Shown in pieces: positions 9,509 to 14,272 of a DNA stretch of 64,000 nucleotides. Position 1 is the first letter of the stretch. The number at the start of each line of letters is the position of its first letter. A model generated the notes under the pieces. The model ran no database searches. It was given only the letters and a program-made list of their open reading frames with translations, and was not told where the DNA came from. The position numbers and the translations under genes are program-made. The stretch comes from Olsenella uli (GTDB lineage Bacteria > Actinomycetota > Coriobacteriia > Coriobacteriales > Atopobiaceae), in the NCBI RefSeq assembly GCF_016899935.1, contig NZ_JACJJK010000005.1, forward strand, positions 1 through 64,000, given 5' to 3'.

Positions 9509-10140
9509 CAGCGACCACTCCCCAGGCGGCGCAGCGCGTAGGCGAGCACCTGCTCGATGGTGGCGGCGCCGGCCTCGTCATGCCCCTCGAGCGCGAGCTC
9601 CGCCTCCTGCGAGGTGAAGCCCATCGAGAGCAGGGCCTCGGTGGCGTCGGCCTCCACGCCTGCGGCGGGCGCGGCGGAAAGCGGCAGCGCCGCGTCCGGC
9701 TCGCTGAGCCCCACGAGGCCCCGGAGCTCGGCGTTTCTTGAGAAGACGTCGGAGAGCTCCACGAGCAGGCGGCTCGCCTTCTTGCGGCCTACGCCCGGCA
9801 CCTGCGCCATGCGCGCGGCGTCCTGCGCGATCACGACCTGCGCGAGTACCGCCGGCGAGAACGTGGAGAGCACCGACAGCGCGAGCTTGGGGCCCACGCC
9901 GGAGATGGCGCGCAGCTGGTCGAAGAGGGCGCGCTCCTCGCGCGTGGCAAAGCCGTAGAGCTCCATCGCGTCCTCGCGCACGATCATGCGCGCCAGCACG
10001 GTGACGCCCGCCTCGCCCGCGTGCGGCAGCGCGGCGGCCGTGGTGGACGAGACGCCGAGCTCGTAGCCGACGCCGCCCACGTCGAGCACGACGCGGGACG
10101 GCGTCACCTCCACGAGCGTACCGGTCAGCTGGACAATCAC
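9508..10140 (-). CDS. ruvA: Holliday junction recognition protein RuvA
   Basis: A 210-residue protein with an N-terminal OB fold ([11 protein letters not shown]), two helix-hairpin-helix motifs ([16 protein letters not shown] and [16 protein letters not shown]) and a C-terminal RuvB-binding UBA-like domain after an Ala-rich linker. Translation starts at GTG, overlapping the ruvC stop by four bases (GTGA). It holds the four-way junction flat for RuvB. Confidence 0.96.
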
Positions 10141-10643
10141 GTGAGGACCCTCCTTGCCTCGCCCAGGCTCTTGGTGCGGGAGACGTTGGCGTGGCAGACC
10201 GCCGCGGCGAGGGCGTCCGCCGCGTGGTCGGGGCGCGGCTCGTGGTCGAGCGCGAGGACGCTCCTCACCATGTACGCCACCTGGTGCTTGTCCGCCGCCC
10301 CGGTGCCGACGACCGCCTGCTTGATCTGCATGGGCGTGTACTCCCCCACCGTGAGGCCGGCCGCCGAGCACGCCACGATCGCCGCGCCGCGCGCCTGCGC
10401 CGTGGCGATGGCTGACTTGGTGTTCTCGCCGAAGTAGATGCTCTCTATGGCGAGCTCGGTGGGGCCGTACTTCTCGATCACCTCGGCCAGCGTGCGGCAG
10501 ATCCGACCGAGCCGCAGGTCGATGGGCTCGCGCGCCGTGGTGGTCACGCAGCCGTACGCCCGCGCGCGGCACGCGGTGCCCCGCGTCTCCACGACGCCCC
10601 AGCCCGTGTGGGCCAGGCCCGGGTCTATGCCGAGAATGACCAT
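10137..10643 (-). CDS. ruvC: Holliday junction resolvase RuvC
   Basis: A 168-residue RNase H-fold endonuclease that cuts Holliday junctions. The first catalytic aspartate is Asp7 in ILGIDPGLAHTGWG; the others fall in ELAIESIYFGEN and PDHAADALAAAVCHAN. It is the first gene of the ruv operon, with a promoter and LexA box immediately upstream. The ATG follows AGGGGGAG. Confidence 0.96.
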   Translation of the reverse strand: MVILGIDPGLAHTGWGVVETRGTACRARAYGCVTTTAREPIDLRLGRICRTLAEVIEKYGPTELAIESIYFGENTKSAIATAQARGAAIVACSAAGLTVGEYTPMQIKQAVVGTGAADKHQVAYMVRSVLALDHEPRPDHAADALAAAVCHANVSRTKSLGEARRVLT

Positions 10644-10662
10644 GCTCCCCCTGCCAGAATCA

Positions 10663-10674
10663 GAACGTCCGTTC
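10663..10674. promoter_or_regulatory. LexA (SOS) box of the ruv operon
   Basis: GAACGTCCGTTC fits the Gram-positive/actinobacterial LexA consensus GAAC-N4-GTTC. It sits just downstream of the ruvC -10 box and about 20 bases from the start codon, where bound LexA would block transcription. Damage-inducible ruvCAB is therefore expected. Confidence 0.75.
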
Positions 10675-10675
10675 T

Positions 10676-10704
10676 ATGCTAGCACAAACGCGGGCGCGCG
10701 TCAG
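10676..10704 (-). promoter_or_regulatory. Promoter of ruvC-ruvA-ruvB
   Basis: On the minus strand CTGACG (10704-10699) is followed after 17 bases by TAGCAT (10681-10676). The -35 box overlaps the last codons of the upstream NAD-synthetase-like gene. The LexA box is directly adjacent. Confidence 0.6.
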
Positions 10705-12533
10705 TTCTCGGAGAAGGGCCCGTTCCAGAGGCCGGGCGCCGGCGGGGTGCCGCCCTCGTGACGGCCGCCCTCCGGGCCGCGCCCACCCTCGAAGGCCGAG
10801 AAGGGCCCGCCGGCGGAGAAGTCGCGGAGGTAGCCCATGAGGTCGCGAATCTCCCCCTCCGGCGGCTCGGTTGCGGGGGCCGCCTCGTCGTCGGGCCCCG
10901 CCTCGCGCTCCCCCGAGCCGGCGCCGGGGGCGGAGACGAGCTCCTCGATGCGCGCGCCCAGCCGCTCGCCCTCGTCGCGCGGGCGGTCGCGCCAGGCGAG
11001 CCCCGCCGGCCAGCGCGCCTCCTCGAGCGTCCGCGATGAGAGGGTGGGACCGAGCGCGCGAGCGGGGCGCAGCGCGGCGAGGTCGTGCAGGCGGCCGACG
11101 ATGGCGGAGACGGTCTCGGCGTGGCCGCGCTCGGCCACGAGGTCGGAGACCGAGAGCTCCCACTCGAGGTGGCCCGACAGCACGAGGTCCACAAAGCCGA
11201 GAAGGGTCTCCGGGGAGGCGAGGTCGGCGGCGTCGGGCCCGAGCGGCCCCAGCTCCGGCGCACGCACGCGGGCGAGCGCCCCCTGCGGGACGACCGGGGA
11301 GATGGTGTTGCGCGTCCGGGCGAGCGCGAGCAGGTCGGTGCGGTAGACGTCGGCGAACGGCTCGATGCGCGCGGCGCTCGCCGAGGCGACGGGGGCCTCG
11401 AGGGCGCGGCCGGTCTTGTCGCGCGAGCCGAGCGGGACCCGGCCGGTGCGGCGCGCGAGCGCGGCGAGGGCGAGCTCGACGAGGTCGCGCGCGGAGGCCG
11501 CGTCGGGGGCGCCCGAGAGGTCGACGAGCTCCACGTCCTTCTCGGCAAGGCGCAGGGCGCGCACGAGGGCGAGCGCGTCGGAGCCCCGCCCGTCCGCCGC
11601 CACGACGGCGCTCACGTTGGTGGGCCCGAGCGCGTCCACGGCGAGCACGGCGGAAAGCATGCTCGCGAGGTCGTCGGTCACGGCGACGCAGGCGCCGATC
11701 GAGCCCGCCTCGCGCACGAGCGCCGCGAGCCCCATGCCGAGCGCGCCCCACGTCATGAGCGGCGCGTCGTAGACCTCGGGCGTCACGGGGTCGACCAGCG
11801 GGCCCTCTGCCGAGGGGTCGAGGTCGCAGACGAGCAGGTCCTCCTCGAAGGAGGGCGAGCTCGCGGCGAGCTCCCCCCAGGGCGCGAGCACGAAGCTCGA
11901 CCCGCAGAAGACCTGCGTGTCGTAGCAGCCGAGCGAGCCCACGCCCACGATCCAGGCGCCGGTCGCCTCCGCGTCGGCGGGAAAGCGTCCCTCGGTGAGC
12001 GAGGAGCCGAGCGCGCTCGACGGATCGTCGACGGCGTACCCGTAGCCGGAGAGGAACACGATCACGTCGACGTCGTAGTCGTAGTCGTCGTAGACGTCGA
12101 GGTCGTCGTAGGTGAAGGCGACGCCGAGCCGCGCGCCCCGGAAGGCGACCTCCGGCAGGGCGTCGAGCGGCTCCTCGCCCTCGTCGCCGGCGGCCAGGGC
12201 GTCCATGCGCGCCGCGAGGCGCACGGGGCGGAGCTCCCCCTCGTCGATCAGCAGCGCCTCGGGCTGCGGCTCGGGGTCGGTGTCCACGAGCATGGGCACC
12301 AGGCACGGGCACGCCAGTTCGTCGACCAGGTGCAGCAAGCACTCCATGAGGTCGAGCAGGAACCCCTCGCGATCCGCGCGCTGGACGGACGTGACGCCGC
12401 AGAGCGCCGCCATCGGAAAGACCAGCAGGTCGACGCCCTCGTCCGCCGCGCGTCGCGAGCGCTCCACCATCCGGCGCGCCGTCTCGGCGAAGTCGCCCGC
12501 CCTCGTCTCCATCTGCGCGATCGCGATTCTCAT
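10701..12533 (-). CDS. Degenerate NAD-synthetase-like protein (probable pseudoenzyme)
   Basis: A 610-residue protein laid out like glutamine-dependent NAD synthetase: an N-terminal nitrilase-like domain (about 1-265) and a C-terminal synthetase-like domain (about 270-460), then an acidic low-complexity tail. Homology shows in MRIAIAQMETRAGDF, CGSSFVLAPWGELAA and GSRDKTGRALEAP. Catalytic parts are lost: the nitrilase Glu is Met41 (FPMAALCGV), the Cys position reads Thr141 (GVAFTYDD), no matching Lys is seen, and the ATP-loop SGGxDS is replaced by VAVTDDLAS (283-291). The frame is intact, so it is not simple decay. The ATG at 12533 has GGGGAG upstream. A regulatory or scaffold role is possible. 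Confidence 0.7.
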   Translation of the reverse strand: MRIAIAQMETRAGDFAETARRMVERSRRAADEGVDLLVFPMAALCGVTSVQRADREGFLLDLMECLLHLVDELACPCLVPMLVDTDPEPQPEALLIDEGELRPVRLAARMDALAAGDEGEEPLDALPEVAFRGARLGVAFTYDDLDVYDDYDYDVDVIVFLSGYGYAVDDPSSALGSSLTEGRFPADAEATGAWIVGVGSLGCYDTQVFCGSSFVLAPWGELAASSPSFEEDLLVCDLDPSAEGPLVDPVTPEVYDAPLMTWGALGMGLAALVREAGSIGACVAVTDDLASMLSAVLAVDALGPTNVSAVVAADGRGSDALALVRALRLAEKDVELVDLSGAPDAASARDLVELALAALARRTGRVPLGSRDKTGRALEAPVASASAARIEPFADVYRTDLLALARTRNTISPVVPQGALARVRAPELGPLGPDAADLASPETLLGFVDLVLSGHLEWELSVSDLVAERGHAETVSAIVGRLHDLAALRPARALGPTLSSRTLEEARWPAGLAWRDRPRDEGERLGARIEELVSAPGAGSGEREAGPDDEAAPATEPPEGEIRDLMGYLRDFSAGGPFSAFEGGRGPEGGRHEGGTPPAPGLWNGPFSEN

Positions 12534-12588
12534 GTGCTCCCCTCTCGTCCCTCTCACCCCATTGTGGCACAGCCGCGCCACACGAGAA

Positions 12589-12608
12589 GGGCCCCGTCGC
12601 CGGGGCCC
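12589..12608 (-). terminator. Hairpin downstream of dfx
   Basis: GGGCCCCG and CGGGGCCC form an 8-bp stem with a 4-base loop. On the minus strand it is followed by CTTCTCGTG. It lies 25 bp after the desulfoferrodoxin stop and before the NAD-synthetase-like gene. Confidence 0.6.
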
Positions 12609-12632
12609 GTCGGACCGATTGCGCGCCGCGCG

Positions 12633-13019
12633 CTACGCGCCGACCTCCGCCTTCCAGAGCCCGTGCAGGTTGCAGTAGGCGTAGACCGTGCCGCCCGCGG
12701 AGTCGCAGGCGCCGAACTTGACGGACGGCGCGTCGCCGGGCGCCAGGTGCTTGAGGCAGAGCTTGCCGTCCGTGGCGAGGGCGACCCACTCGATGGAGTG
12801 CTCCTCGGTCATGGGGTGGGCCACCGCGCCCACGGAGACGACGATGTGGTTGCCGTCGCGCGTGACGACGGGCACGTGCTTCTCGGCGGCGGCGTCGACG
12901 GAGCCGGCCACGAGCAGCTCCATCGGCTCGCCGCAGCAGCTGGGGGTGACGCCCCCGTCCTTCACGACGGCCACGATGTTGCCGCAGTGGGCGCAGCGGT
13001 AGAACTTGACCTCGGCCAT
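12633..13019 (-). CDS. dfx: Desulfoferrodoxin (superoxide reductase)
   Basis: A 128-residue two-iron superoxide reductase that reduces superoxide to peroxide without making oxygen, typical of anaerobes. The N-terminal desulforedoxin domain has Cys9, Cys12, Cys28 and Cys29 for the first iron. The neelaredoxin domain supplies His48 (EKHVPVV), His68, His74 (TEEHSIEW), Cys116 and His119 (YCNLHGLW) for the catalytic iron. The ATG at 13019 is chosen because the desulforedoxin start MAEVKFYRC follows it. It appears to be transcribed alone, with a hairpin after the stop. Confidence 0.95.
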   Translation of the reverse strand: MAEVKFYRCAHCGNIVAVVKDGGVTPSCCGEPMELLVAGSVDAAAEKHVPVVTRDGNHIVVSVGAVAHPMTEEHSIEWVALATDGKLCLKHLAPGDAPSVKFGACDSAGGTVYAYCNLHGLWKAEVGA

Positions 13020-13128
13020 GGCGGGTCCTCTCTCACGTGTCGGGCGCCCGATGCGCCCGCTGCCCTTCTCGTACCCGCCCGTGCGCGCCGCTAAGCCGAG
13101 AAGGACGGGCGGAGTGGCCCGCCCCCCG

Positions 13129-13800
13129 CTACAACGCCTTCTTTCGCACGGTCTTGAGGACGTTTCTCCTGAACGTCCCCCACGAGCCAAAGAAGCGACG
13201 GTCGGTCGCCGTCTCCTCGTGCGCCTGGTACTTGAGGGCCGTCAGCTCGACCGCGCAGGCGTAGTCGGCGGCCTGGGAGAGCCGATACTCCGACGGCGTC
13301 GCCGAGCGGAACACCACGGCCTCTCGCGCGAGCGCGTACTCCAGCGCGTCATGGAGCGCCTGGGTCACCGCGTGCTGGCCGCCGTCGTAGTAGACCTTCA
13401 CCCGATCGAATCGCTGCAGGTAGTCGAGGTTGTCAAAGAGGAAGTTGACCACGTCGCGGCGCATCCGCTCCGACAGGCGCGCCGCGCTCGCGAACTCGCG
13501 CTTGCGATACGAGAAGGTCTTGTAGCGGATGGGGAGATATCGAAACAGCACGCGAAACGCAGCGAGGAGACGCGCCCGGTCGTCCACGTCCATGCGAGCA
13601 TATCCGTCATGTCCGTTTATCAAAGGTGACGCGTGGAACGGCACGTCGGGAAGACCACGGGCAGAGAGGCCCCGCTCATAATGGGAGACGCTATTCGACA
13701 AGGGGGCGTCCTGCTCATGAAACACCAGCGTGAGCAGATAGTAGTCGGAGTCGAGCCCGTCGGCACCGGACTCGTCCACGAAGATGCTCACCTCGCGCAT
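13129..13800 (-). CDS. DUF3800 domain protein
   Basis: A 223-residue soluble protein with the DUF3800 pattern: an N-terminal SIFVDESGADGLDSDYY, a mid-protein KVYYDGG, and a C-terminal LSQAADYACAVELTALKY. The fold is RNase H-like with conserved acidic residues, which suggests a nuclease, but no member function is settled. Such genes often sit on mobile or defence islands, and here the neighbour is a nucleotidyltransferase islet. The ATG at 13800 has AGAGGGGAC upstream; an ATG six codons earlier lacks a ribosome site. A strong minus-strand terminator lies immediately upstream, so it has its own promoter or follows readthrough. Confidence 0.8.
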   Translation of the reverse strand: MREVSIFVDESGADGLDSDYYLLTLVFHEQDAPLSNSVSHYERGLSARGLPDVPFHASPLINGHDGYARMDVDDRARLLAAFRVLFRYLPIRYKTFSYRKREFASAARLSERMRRDVVNFLFDNLDYLQRFDRVKVYYDGGQHAVTQALHDALEYALAREAVVFRSATPSEYRLSQAADYACAVELTALKYQAHEETATDRRFFGSWGTFRRNVLKTVRKKAL

Positions 13801-13820
13801 CTCTCGTCCCCTCTCCATAC

Positions 13821-13952: not shown

Positions 13953-13981
13953 AATGGGTATACTTGCCCCGAGGAGGAAGC

Positions 13982-14272
13982 GTGCCCAACCTGGGAAACA
14001 TACAGCGCGCCGTAAGAAGAATCGCGGCCGAGCATGGCCTCGACAAGGTCACGCTGTTCGGAAGCTATGCCCGAGGCAAGGCTCGGGAGGGCTCGGACGT
14101 CGACCTCGTCGTGGAGGCGTCGCGCCCGCTCGGCTTTGCGCGCGGTGCCATCTACCGGGAGCTCGAGGAGGCGCTCGGCTGTCCCGTCGACGTCATCTTT
14201 GGCGAGAGGAGCCTCTACCCGTTCGTCCGCCCCGCCGTGGCCTCCGAGGGCGTGGTGCTCTATGAGGCCTGA
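13982..14272 (+). CDS. Minimal nucleotidyltransferase (MNT/MntA-like)
   Basis: A 96-residue nucleotidyltransferase-fold protein. The core GSYARGKAREGSDVDLVV holds Gly27-Ser28 and the metal-binding Asp39 and Asp41; a further aspartate lies in CPVDVIFGE. Such proteins usually pair with a HEPN protein in a toxin-antitoxin unit where the MNT enzyme modifies and silences the HEPN ribonuclease. Here the following frame is only 41 codons and not a full HEPN. The GTG at 13982 has GAGGAGG upstream and is preferred over an in-frame TTG. It lies inside the segment bracketed by dnaE-end repeats. Confidence 0.85.
   Translation: MPNLGNIQRAVRRIAAEHGLDKVTLFGSYARGKAREGSDVDLVVEASRPLGFARGAIYRELEEALGCPVDVIFGERSLYPFVRPAVASEGVVLYEA

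Follow-up and report, generated by a model that had tools for sequence, protein, structure and literature searches.

An NAD synthetase homologue of Olsenella uli and its relatives that appears to have lost both active sites and keeps an invariant C-terminal FSxN motif

What keeps a nicotinamide adenine dinucleotide (NAD) synthetase in a genome when the residues of both its active sites seem to be gone? The question is raised by a gene, here called X, in a 64,000-nucleotide stretch of Olsenella uli contig NZ_JACJJK010000005.1, which we analyzed as a whole (the window). A sequence-only reading of the window had described X as an NadE-like protein of two domains, with Met41 for the nitrilase Glu, Thr141 for the Cys and the loop VAVTDDLAS for SGGxDS, encoded by an intact 610-codon frame with a good ribosome site and probably maintained for another role. 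These points hold. The frame, of 610 aa and with zero internal stops, runs on the minus strand from an ATG at 12533 to a stop at 10701-10703, while frame 1 of the plus strand yields an unrelated peptide with a stop; a Shine-Dalgarno-like AGGGGAG, read from the sequence, is found 3 bases 5' of the ATG, and a promoter and terminator scan of 10500-13200 found none. Our answer to the question is that X is probably a former glutamine-dependent NAD synthetase that now serves as a folded scaffold or adaptor and no longer as a catalyst. The features of X are the following.

10704..12533, minus strand: gene X, pseudo-NadE of 610 aa (open frame, homology, family matches)
11784..12533, minus strand: nitrilase-like (glutaminase) domain, residues ~1-250 (PF00795, 47 bits; the model matches nitrilase and NadE structures)
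12411..12413, minus strand: Met41 at the position of the nitrilase catalytic Glu (5kha alignment; Glu absent from the column in 100 sequences)
12111..12113, minus strand: Thr141 at the position of the nitrilase catalytic Cys (alignment; Cys absent from the column in 100 sequences)
10989..11771, minus strand: NAD-synthetase-like domain, residues ~255-515 (model match to 1xng_B)
11661..11687, minus strand: altered P-loop VAVTDDLAS, residues 283-291, replacing SGGxDS (alignment; SGGxDS in 0/107 family members)
10704..10973, minus strand: C-terminal extension, residues 521-610, made of a variable linker, a short helix EIRDLMGYLRDF, a Gly-rich linker and the tail (conservation by block and model confidence)
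10704..10715, minus strand: C-terminal FSEN, an instance of the invariant FSxN-stop

The layout of two-domain NadE, a nitrilase domain followed by an NAD-synthetase domain, is present in X. The Pfam family CN_hydrolase is matched well above its cut-off of 23.2 bits. Because NAD_synthase reaches 14.9 bits and stays under its cut-off of 21, the assignment of the NadE half rests on the score for the NCBIfam family of NAD+ synthase PRK13981 (PRK13981.1 equivalog; 98.5 bits, below its cut-off of 479), on sequence alignment with solved structures and on the predicted model. No other enzyme family was named for X by Pfam or NCBIfam. The closest solved structures by sequence are 5kha, 3n05 and 4f4h, and the best of them, 5kha (E 3.7e-22, matched residues 2-311 and 391-514), reads FPE where X reads FPM (Met41) and SGGIDS where X reads TDDLAS. 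An alignment with true NadE proteins had been proposed by the sequence-only reading, and the motif losses were seen in it. Judged from these alignments, X is a homologue of two-domain NadE and would be descended from a glutamine-dependent NAD synthetase.

The losses are not confined to one strain. A search of the family genomes detected an X homologue in 134 of 140 Atopobiaceae genomes; a profile search with a 34-member alignment matched 135 of 140, the match in G033 being an ordinary NadE frame (genomes, contigs, loci and families are given by our own handles where they have to be told apart). The family, f1, is taken as Atopobiaceae because of the names of the named related loci (Olsenella, Atopobium sp. 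UBA1382, Thermophilibacter and uncultured Atopobiaceae). At the level of the order, 375 of 395 genomes had a profile match, ordinary NadE of other families included, and a second family, f3, which we guess to be the Collinsella family, was matched in each of its 65 genomes at E 1.6e-89 or better. Sequences were read from 109 of the 134 genomes (30 loci from the family search and 79 further genomes) and from the named loci. After identical rows were merged, 115 remained, and exclusion of eight rows (canonical enzymes of other phyla, L020-L022; partial or interrupted, L017, L019, L099 and L123; very divergent, L120) left 107 distinct sequences, 100 of them below 90% identity; for f3, 12 sequences were read out of the 65 genomes. 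Site losses were judged from alignment columns, loose regular expressions for Glu and Cys having been discarded, and no claim is made on the catalytic Lys, whose column aligns poorly.

Across the 100 Atopobiaceae rows, the residues at the Glu position are A 36, M 25, L 15, S 7, V 4, Y 4, F 4, T 3, R 1 and P 1, and those at the Cys position T 53, S 26, D 11, G 5, N 4 and Q 1. Neither SGGxDS nor NKSE occurs in any of the 107 X sequences, and YGD, found in seven rows, stands each time at another place than in NadE. The f3 sequences show A 9, T 2 and V 1 at Glu, an alignment gap at Cys in 12/12, P-loops that read like LTGDLQSS or LEGDLPSS, and SGGxDS or NKSE in 0/12. Chance is excluded as the cause, because these losses are seen again and again among the family sequences read, and both NadE active sites appear from the alignment to be lost across the whole lineage. 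One genome, G136, carries two different X copies (L135 on G136:C97, L136 on G136:C37) at two dfx/ruv loci; 5% contamination is listed for it, and it may be a mixed assembly.

A second feature common to the family is the very end of the protein. FSxN-stop ends 107/107 Atopobiaceae rows and 12/12 f3 rows, with GPFSEN (35) and SPFSEN (25) as the commonest ends in Atopobiaceae and PFFSQN (7) in f3. Conservation is 1.00 at F607, S608 and N610, against means of 0.18-0.23 in blocks 521-560 and 581-600, and averages 0.54 in block 561-580. Even disturbed loci, which lie outside this count, end in the motif wherever the 3' end was readable: at the place of X, G017 (L120/L169, G017:C10) has a 1085-codon frame that holds X remnants only, an altered P-loop and an acidic extension, and this frame ends NPFSIN; X of G044 is broken by an assembly gap and then continues to GPFSDN; and X of G061, with one in-frame TAG, ends GMFSNN. 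A search for other FSxN proteins in X's own genome gave 18 DNA-pattern matches, against 17 in a reversed control, which is the level of chance; three other frames there read FSxN-stop, and one of them ends a plausible small membrane protein.

Homologues outside the X group reveal a stage between ordinary NadE and X. In 23 homologues (INTERMEDIATES; among loci L142-L165) from families f2 and f5-f10 and from one f4 genome (G279), the nitrilase Glu is gone and the synthetase motifs are kept, with SGGxDS, NKSE and YGD all present in 23/23. Their Glu column reads A 15, Q 2, S 2, P 2, V 1 and N 1, and their Cys column, without any Cys, D 13, N 3, E 2, G 2, S 1, R 1 and one gap; one or two rows have a Cys one or two columns ahead of it, where the alignment is uncertain. 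By their motifs, these hybrids would be NAD synthetases that depend on ammonia and carry a vestigial glutaminase domain, a natural fusion. Among the six f4 genomes, four have a stand-alone synthetase of 283-316 codons, G279 has the hybrid and G277 a weak match only. The ends of the hybrids also differ between families: 10/10 f9 rows close with [FIY][SLM]xN, an end that the f2, f5-f8 and G279 rows lack.

The FSxN tail itself also ends f10 proteins, PIFSKN in G394 and PLFSKN in G393. The G394 enzyme (L202, L142) has an intact P-loop and synthetase site and is accompanied by no other PF02540 match above 30 bits. In G393, whose gene is split across two contigs, LAGDLDSS stands for the P-loop and CDKT for NKSE, and a separate 369-codon NadE frame carries SGGKDS and YGD; G392, the remaining genome of the genus of these two, gave zero PF02540 matches and is uninformative here. 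Since the tail sits on an enzyme with an intact synthetase site in G394, it seems, as far as the motifs tell, to be older than the loss of that site. In the trees, both quick ones with long branches, X of Atopobiaceae and f3 forms one side of a branch with support of 100 in the Shimodaira-Hasegawa-like approximate likelihood ratio test (SH-aLRT). G393 goes with G394 by its N-terminal half (support 80) and with X by its C-terminal half (support 98), DKT being common to G393 and X; a tree that joins the C-terminal half to G394 has a higher likelihood and is not rejected (approximately unbiased test, p-AU 0.69). Because of this difference between the halves and the p-AU value, a claim of at least two independent losses of the synthetase site was withdrawn.

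The sequence-only reading had held that X is maintained rather than decaying, and had named the ratio of nonsynonymous to synonymous substitution rates (dN/dS, w) among close relatives as a check. The values are low: by the Nei-Gojobori method, w of X ranges from 0.028 to 0.295 in the 30 closest pairs. Genes from the X loci served for comparison wherever they were present. In most pairs, ruvC and ruvB evolve more slowly than X; between the window and L004, the nearest named full-length relative, w is 0.259 for X, 0.107 for ruvC, 0.101 for ruvB and 0.333 for dfx. X is thus clearly constrained and under purifying selection. Plain decay in relatives, which would have spoken for a relic, is rare, the loci of G061 and G044 described above being the only such cases among those read, both with the tail kept; in G072 the X match spans a TGA, as seen from the family search match alone.

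A check for a second, intact nadE in the genome had been proposed as well, and one was found: contig C102 carries a 688-codon open frame with PEL (Glu), CEDLW and SGGLDS, and it is presumably this NadE that does NAD synthesis in these cells. It belongs to the NF002730 type, members of which were found above the cut-off in 44 of 60 chosen genomes (35/36 Atopobiaceae, 9/9 f3, 0/15 others). The Atopobiaceae exception, G019, has NadE fragments only, and G026 and G033, among the 35, are without X. Wherever X lacks the synthetase motifs, another NadE was found among the tested genomes, with G019 undecided. An intact hybrid need not be the sole NadE of its genome: in G140 and G279, a second NadE-like frame with a weaker match (~120 bits to PF02540) accompanies it.

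An AlphaFold2 model of X, built from 15 alignment rows, has a mean predicted local distance difference test score (pLDDT) of 65.8 and a predicted template modelling score (pTM) of 0.47. Ten-residue blocks reach pLDDT 74-94 over residues 261-490 and fall below 50 over 534-610, the nitrilase half and the tail being weak. VIA-align superposed model residues 256-491 on 1xng_B, the NadE of H. pylori (Z 22.4, root mean square deviation (rmsd) 2.2, 214 aligned, 18% identity), and matched 3n05_A with displaced domains (Z 25.2, 406 aligned, rmsd 15.8); whole-chain TM-scores by Foldseek are ~0.3, and such low values probably come from the two domains being misplaced relative to each other in the model. 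The match to the NadE domain is the only firm one among the structure matches. Within the predicted fold, the invariant residues of X are G202, G211, S213, E231, K373, T374, D395 and W514.

The usual gene order at the locus, on one strand, is dnaE - dfx - X - ruvC - ruvA - ruvB. That X sits just before the SOS-controlled ruv operon, as the sequence-only reading had it, agrees with the annotation of the window, where ruv follows directly downstream with a palindromic box in between:

10137..10643, minus strand: ruvC (PF02075, 180.2 bits), followed by ruvA and ruvB down to 8447
10663..10674, strandless: palindromic LexA-type box GAACGTCCGTTC between X and ruvC, assigned by its position to the ruv promoter and not to X
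12633..13022, minus strand: dfx, desulfoferrodoxin, upstream neighbour of X (PF01880, 67.6 bits; PF06397, 48.2 bits)

A scan of 126 rows for neighbour markers, in which several genomes are counted twice and many rows are cut by contig ends, found dfx upstream in 107, ruvA downstream in 112 and ruvB downstream in 111; markers for CrcB and for the phosphotransferase system (PTS) had wrong ends and were left unused, and apparent upstream RuvC matches at distances near -2400 are stop-to-stop frames that start inside X, not upstream genes. Among the 107 distinct Atopobiaceae rows, 99 have ruvC on the same strand less than 300 bp 3' of X (median gap 72 bp). Of the remaining eight, L067, L071, L079 and L126 have it ~2.1 kb downstream; in L093 and L108 it lies upstream and is encoded on the other strand, and in L018 and L065 it is not within reach. 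All 12 f3 loci have dfx, ruvC, ruvA and ruvB. The exact box GAACNNNNGTTC is present in 99/99 gaps between X and ruvC, searched together with the last 30 bp of X, and 3' of X in 12/12 f3 loci; up to 300 bp upstream of X it occurs in 0/99 Atopobiaceae and 0/12 f3 loci, a result that leaves room for weaker boxes or read-through. By position, X would lie outside the LexA-type box that precedes ruvC. In G394 the tailed enzyme begins ~95 bp after dfx, if it starts with GTG, and ruvC is on another contig; therefore the closeness to dfx may be older than that to ruvC.

Between dfx and dnaE, the window also encodes a DUF3800 protein (13129-13818, minus strand) and a small nucleotidyltransferase (NTP_transf_2; 13964-14272, plus strand). 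The DUF3800 marker was matched in 1 of the 126 rows, the window's own, many rows having only 1-3 kb of upstream sequence, and the stretch looks like a recent accessory insertion.

Some Atopobiaceae genomes have no X. In G009 (79% complete), dnaE, an FKBP-like gene and dfx stand on one contig and ruvC on another, and X was found at neither place nor elsewhere. G026 and G033 gave no match for the DnaE of the window or for RuvC and only weak AAA matches for RuvB; the dnaE-ruv block seems absent or unreadable in both, G026 being one contig and 99% complete. A joint loss of X and ruvC in these two genomes had been considered as a sign of a functional link and was dropped, because the window DnaE is unmatched in both as well. 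Three further genomes without X give no information on such a co-loss: in G004, ruvC lies close to the end of a contig; G010 (57% complete) yielded no match to ruvC; and in G015 (69% complete), ruvB is close to a contig end and ruvC is unmatched.

We infer the loss of catalysis in X from its missing motifs; the model is too weak to speak against a new active site. If X is a scaffold or adaptor, the FSxN tail would be a peptide that docks onto a partner protein or an adjacent subunit, and the second job would have begun while the enzyme was still active; X would then have stayed after NAD synthesis passed to another NadE because that job had already begun. A wider proposal, which we put forward as tentative and would not expect to stand in full, is that the NAD synthetase of this order had a non-catalytic function through an FSxN docking peptide, that another NadE took over synthesis, perhaps in two lineages, and that the catalytic sites died while the docking protein persisted. 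The outcome would be a new class of adaptors, derived from NadE and with a dedicated receptor, which possibly couple replication and repair (dnaE, ruvCAB) to the redox or NAD state (dfx). In a sharper version of the proposal, the C-terminal Asn, which carries an amide in its side chain and a free carboxylate, would act as a glutamine mimic and block the dead glutaminase pocket, either in the same subunit or in an adjacent one. Against this version speaks the free variation at the positions of the old Glu and Cys, which is unlike that of a finely kept pocket. Several observations weigh against the adaptor reading as such. FSxN is at chance level in X's own genome, so no set of tailed proteins emerges; the model, of modest quality, leaves the tail disordered and so speaks neither for nor against docking; the invariant residues within the predicted fold would also suit a new active site; judging by the trees, the second loss may have happened once or twice; and X was either dispensable in G009, where dfx and ruvC are present, or missed there.

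X could instead be a regulatory pseudo-subunit or sensor of NAD metabolism, which forms mixed oligomers with true NadE or binds adenosine triphosphate (ATP), nicotinic acid adenine dinucleotide (NaAD) or NAD and tunes synthesis. Its coexistence with a true NadE in the tested genomes (again with G019 undecided), the well-modelled NadE domain and the invariance of the old-site residues K373, T374 and D395 suit such a role, but neither the ATP loop nor the NKSE segment survives (0/107) and the true NadE is of a distant subtype, separated by a tree branch 2 changes per column long, so that we regard a regulator as unlikely. An enzyme of another reaction, with a new active site formed from the invariant S213, E231, K373, T374 and D395, would account for the persistence of internal invariant residues over ~100 divergent sequences. 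Many such residues are, however, also found in ordinary NadE (VGGQD..F.G.SF, FKED, DVYKT and RN in 5kha), the positions of both old sites vary freely, and no other enzyme family is named by Pfam or NCBIfam; a new enzyme seems to us quite unlikely.

The neighbourhood invites the thought that X is a DNA-repair factor that works with RuvCAB inside the SOS response, with ruvC less than 300 bp after X in 99/107 rows and ruvC, ruvA and ruvB following in the 12 f3 loci. The box, however, lies between X and ruvC in 99/99 and 12/12 loci and never upstream, which does not place X under its control, and 8/107 rows lack the arrangement, as does G394, where the tailed enzyme adjoins dfx and ruvC is elsewhere; a repair factor is improbable. 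That X is a functionless relic which happens to persist would agree with its faster evolution than ruvC and ruvB in most pairs, with the locus with one in-frame TAG and with the absence of X from G009, but this explanation is strongly disfavoured: the frame is open in 107 distinct sequences, w stays far below 1, and the C-terminal motif is invariant although the linker before it varies.

Set beside known proteins, the adaptor candidate X shares with the NadE enzymes of the PRK13981/NF010588 type (5kha, 3n05, 4f4h) the domain order, the fold of the NadE half and the segments FxGxSF...FEED and DVYRT..ARxRN, and differs from them in lacking the nitrilase Glu and Cys, SGGxDS and NKSE, in scoring 98.5 of the 479 bits and in its extra linker with FSxN. 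The hybrids of f2, f5-f10 and G279 are its nearest homologues outside the X group, with the nitrilase Glu gone and, in L142, an FSKN end; unlike X, they keep the synthetase motifs in 23/23, and NF002730-type NadE scored above its cut-off in 0/13 of the tested genomes that carry them. The NadE on C102, of the PRK02628/NF002730 type, which we take to be the M. tuberculosis type, belongs to the same two-domain class, but it has the Glu, CEDLW and SGGLDS and sits on a distant branch and at another locus. Pseudoenzymes are inactive paralogues that have turned into regulators or scaffolds, and X resembles them in its conserved fold, lost catalytic residues and purifying selection. To our knowledge, no pseudoenzyme derived from NadE has been described. 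In the literature searched, outside which most subscription papers and all bioRxiv preprints lie, no paper on a catalytically dead NadE in these bacteria was seen among those listed, and in a survey of one- and two-domain NadE the words 'inactive', 'Atopobium' and 'Collinsella' are absent by word count (PMC3376133).

What goes beyond the sequence-only reading is that the loss would be common to the whole family, that a seemingly half-dead intermediate exists in sister families and that the FSxN is invariant in the sequences read. The present-day relatives form an unusually complete series, from the canonical enzyme through one dead site and one dead site with the tail to two dead sites with the tail, in which an essential metabolic enzyme can be followed as it turns into a non-catalytic protein, and what holds such a dead enzyme in the genome is testable through one four-residue motif. 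Annotation by domain names could label X an NAD synthase or a carbon-nitrogen hydrolase and so mislead metabolic models of Atopobiaceae and their relatives.

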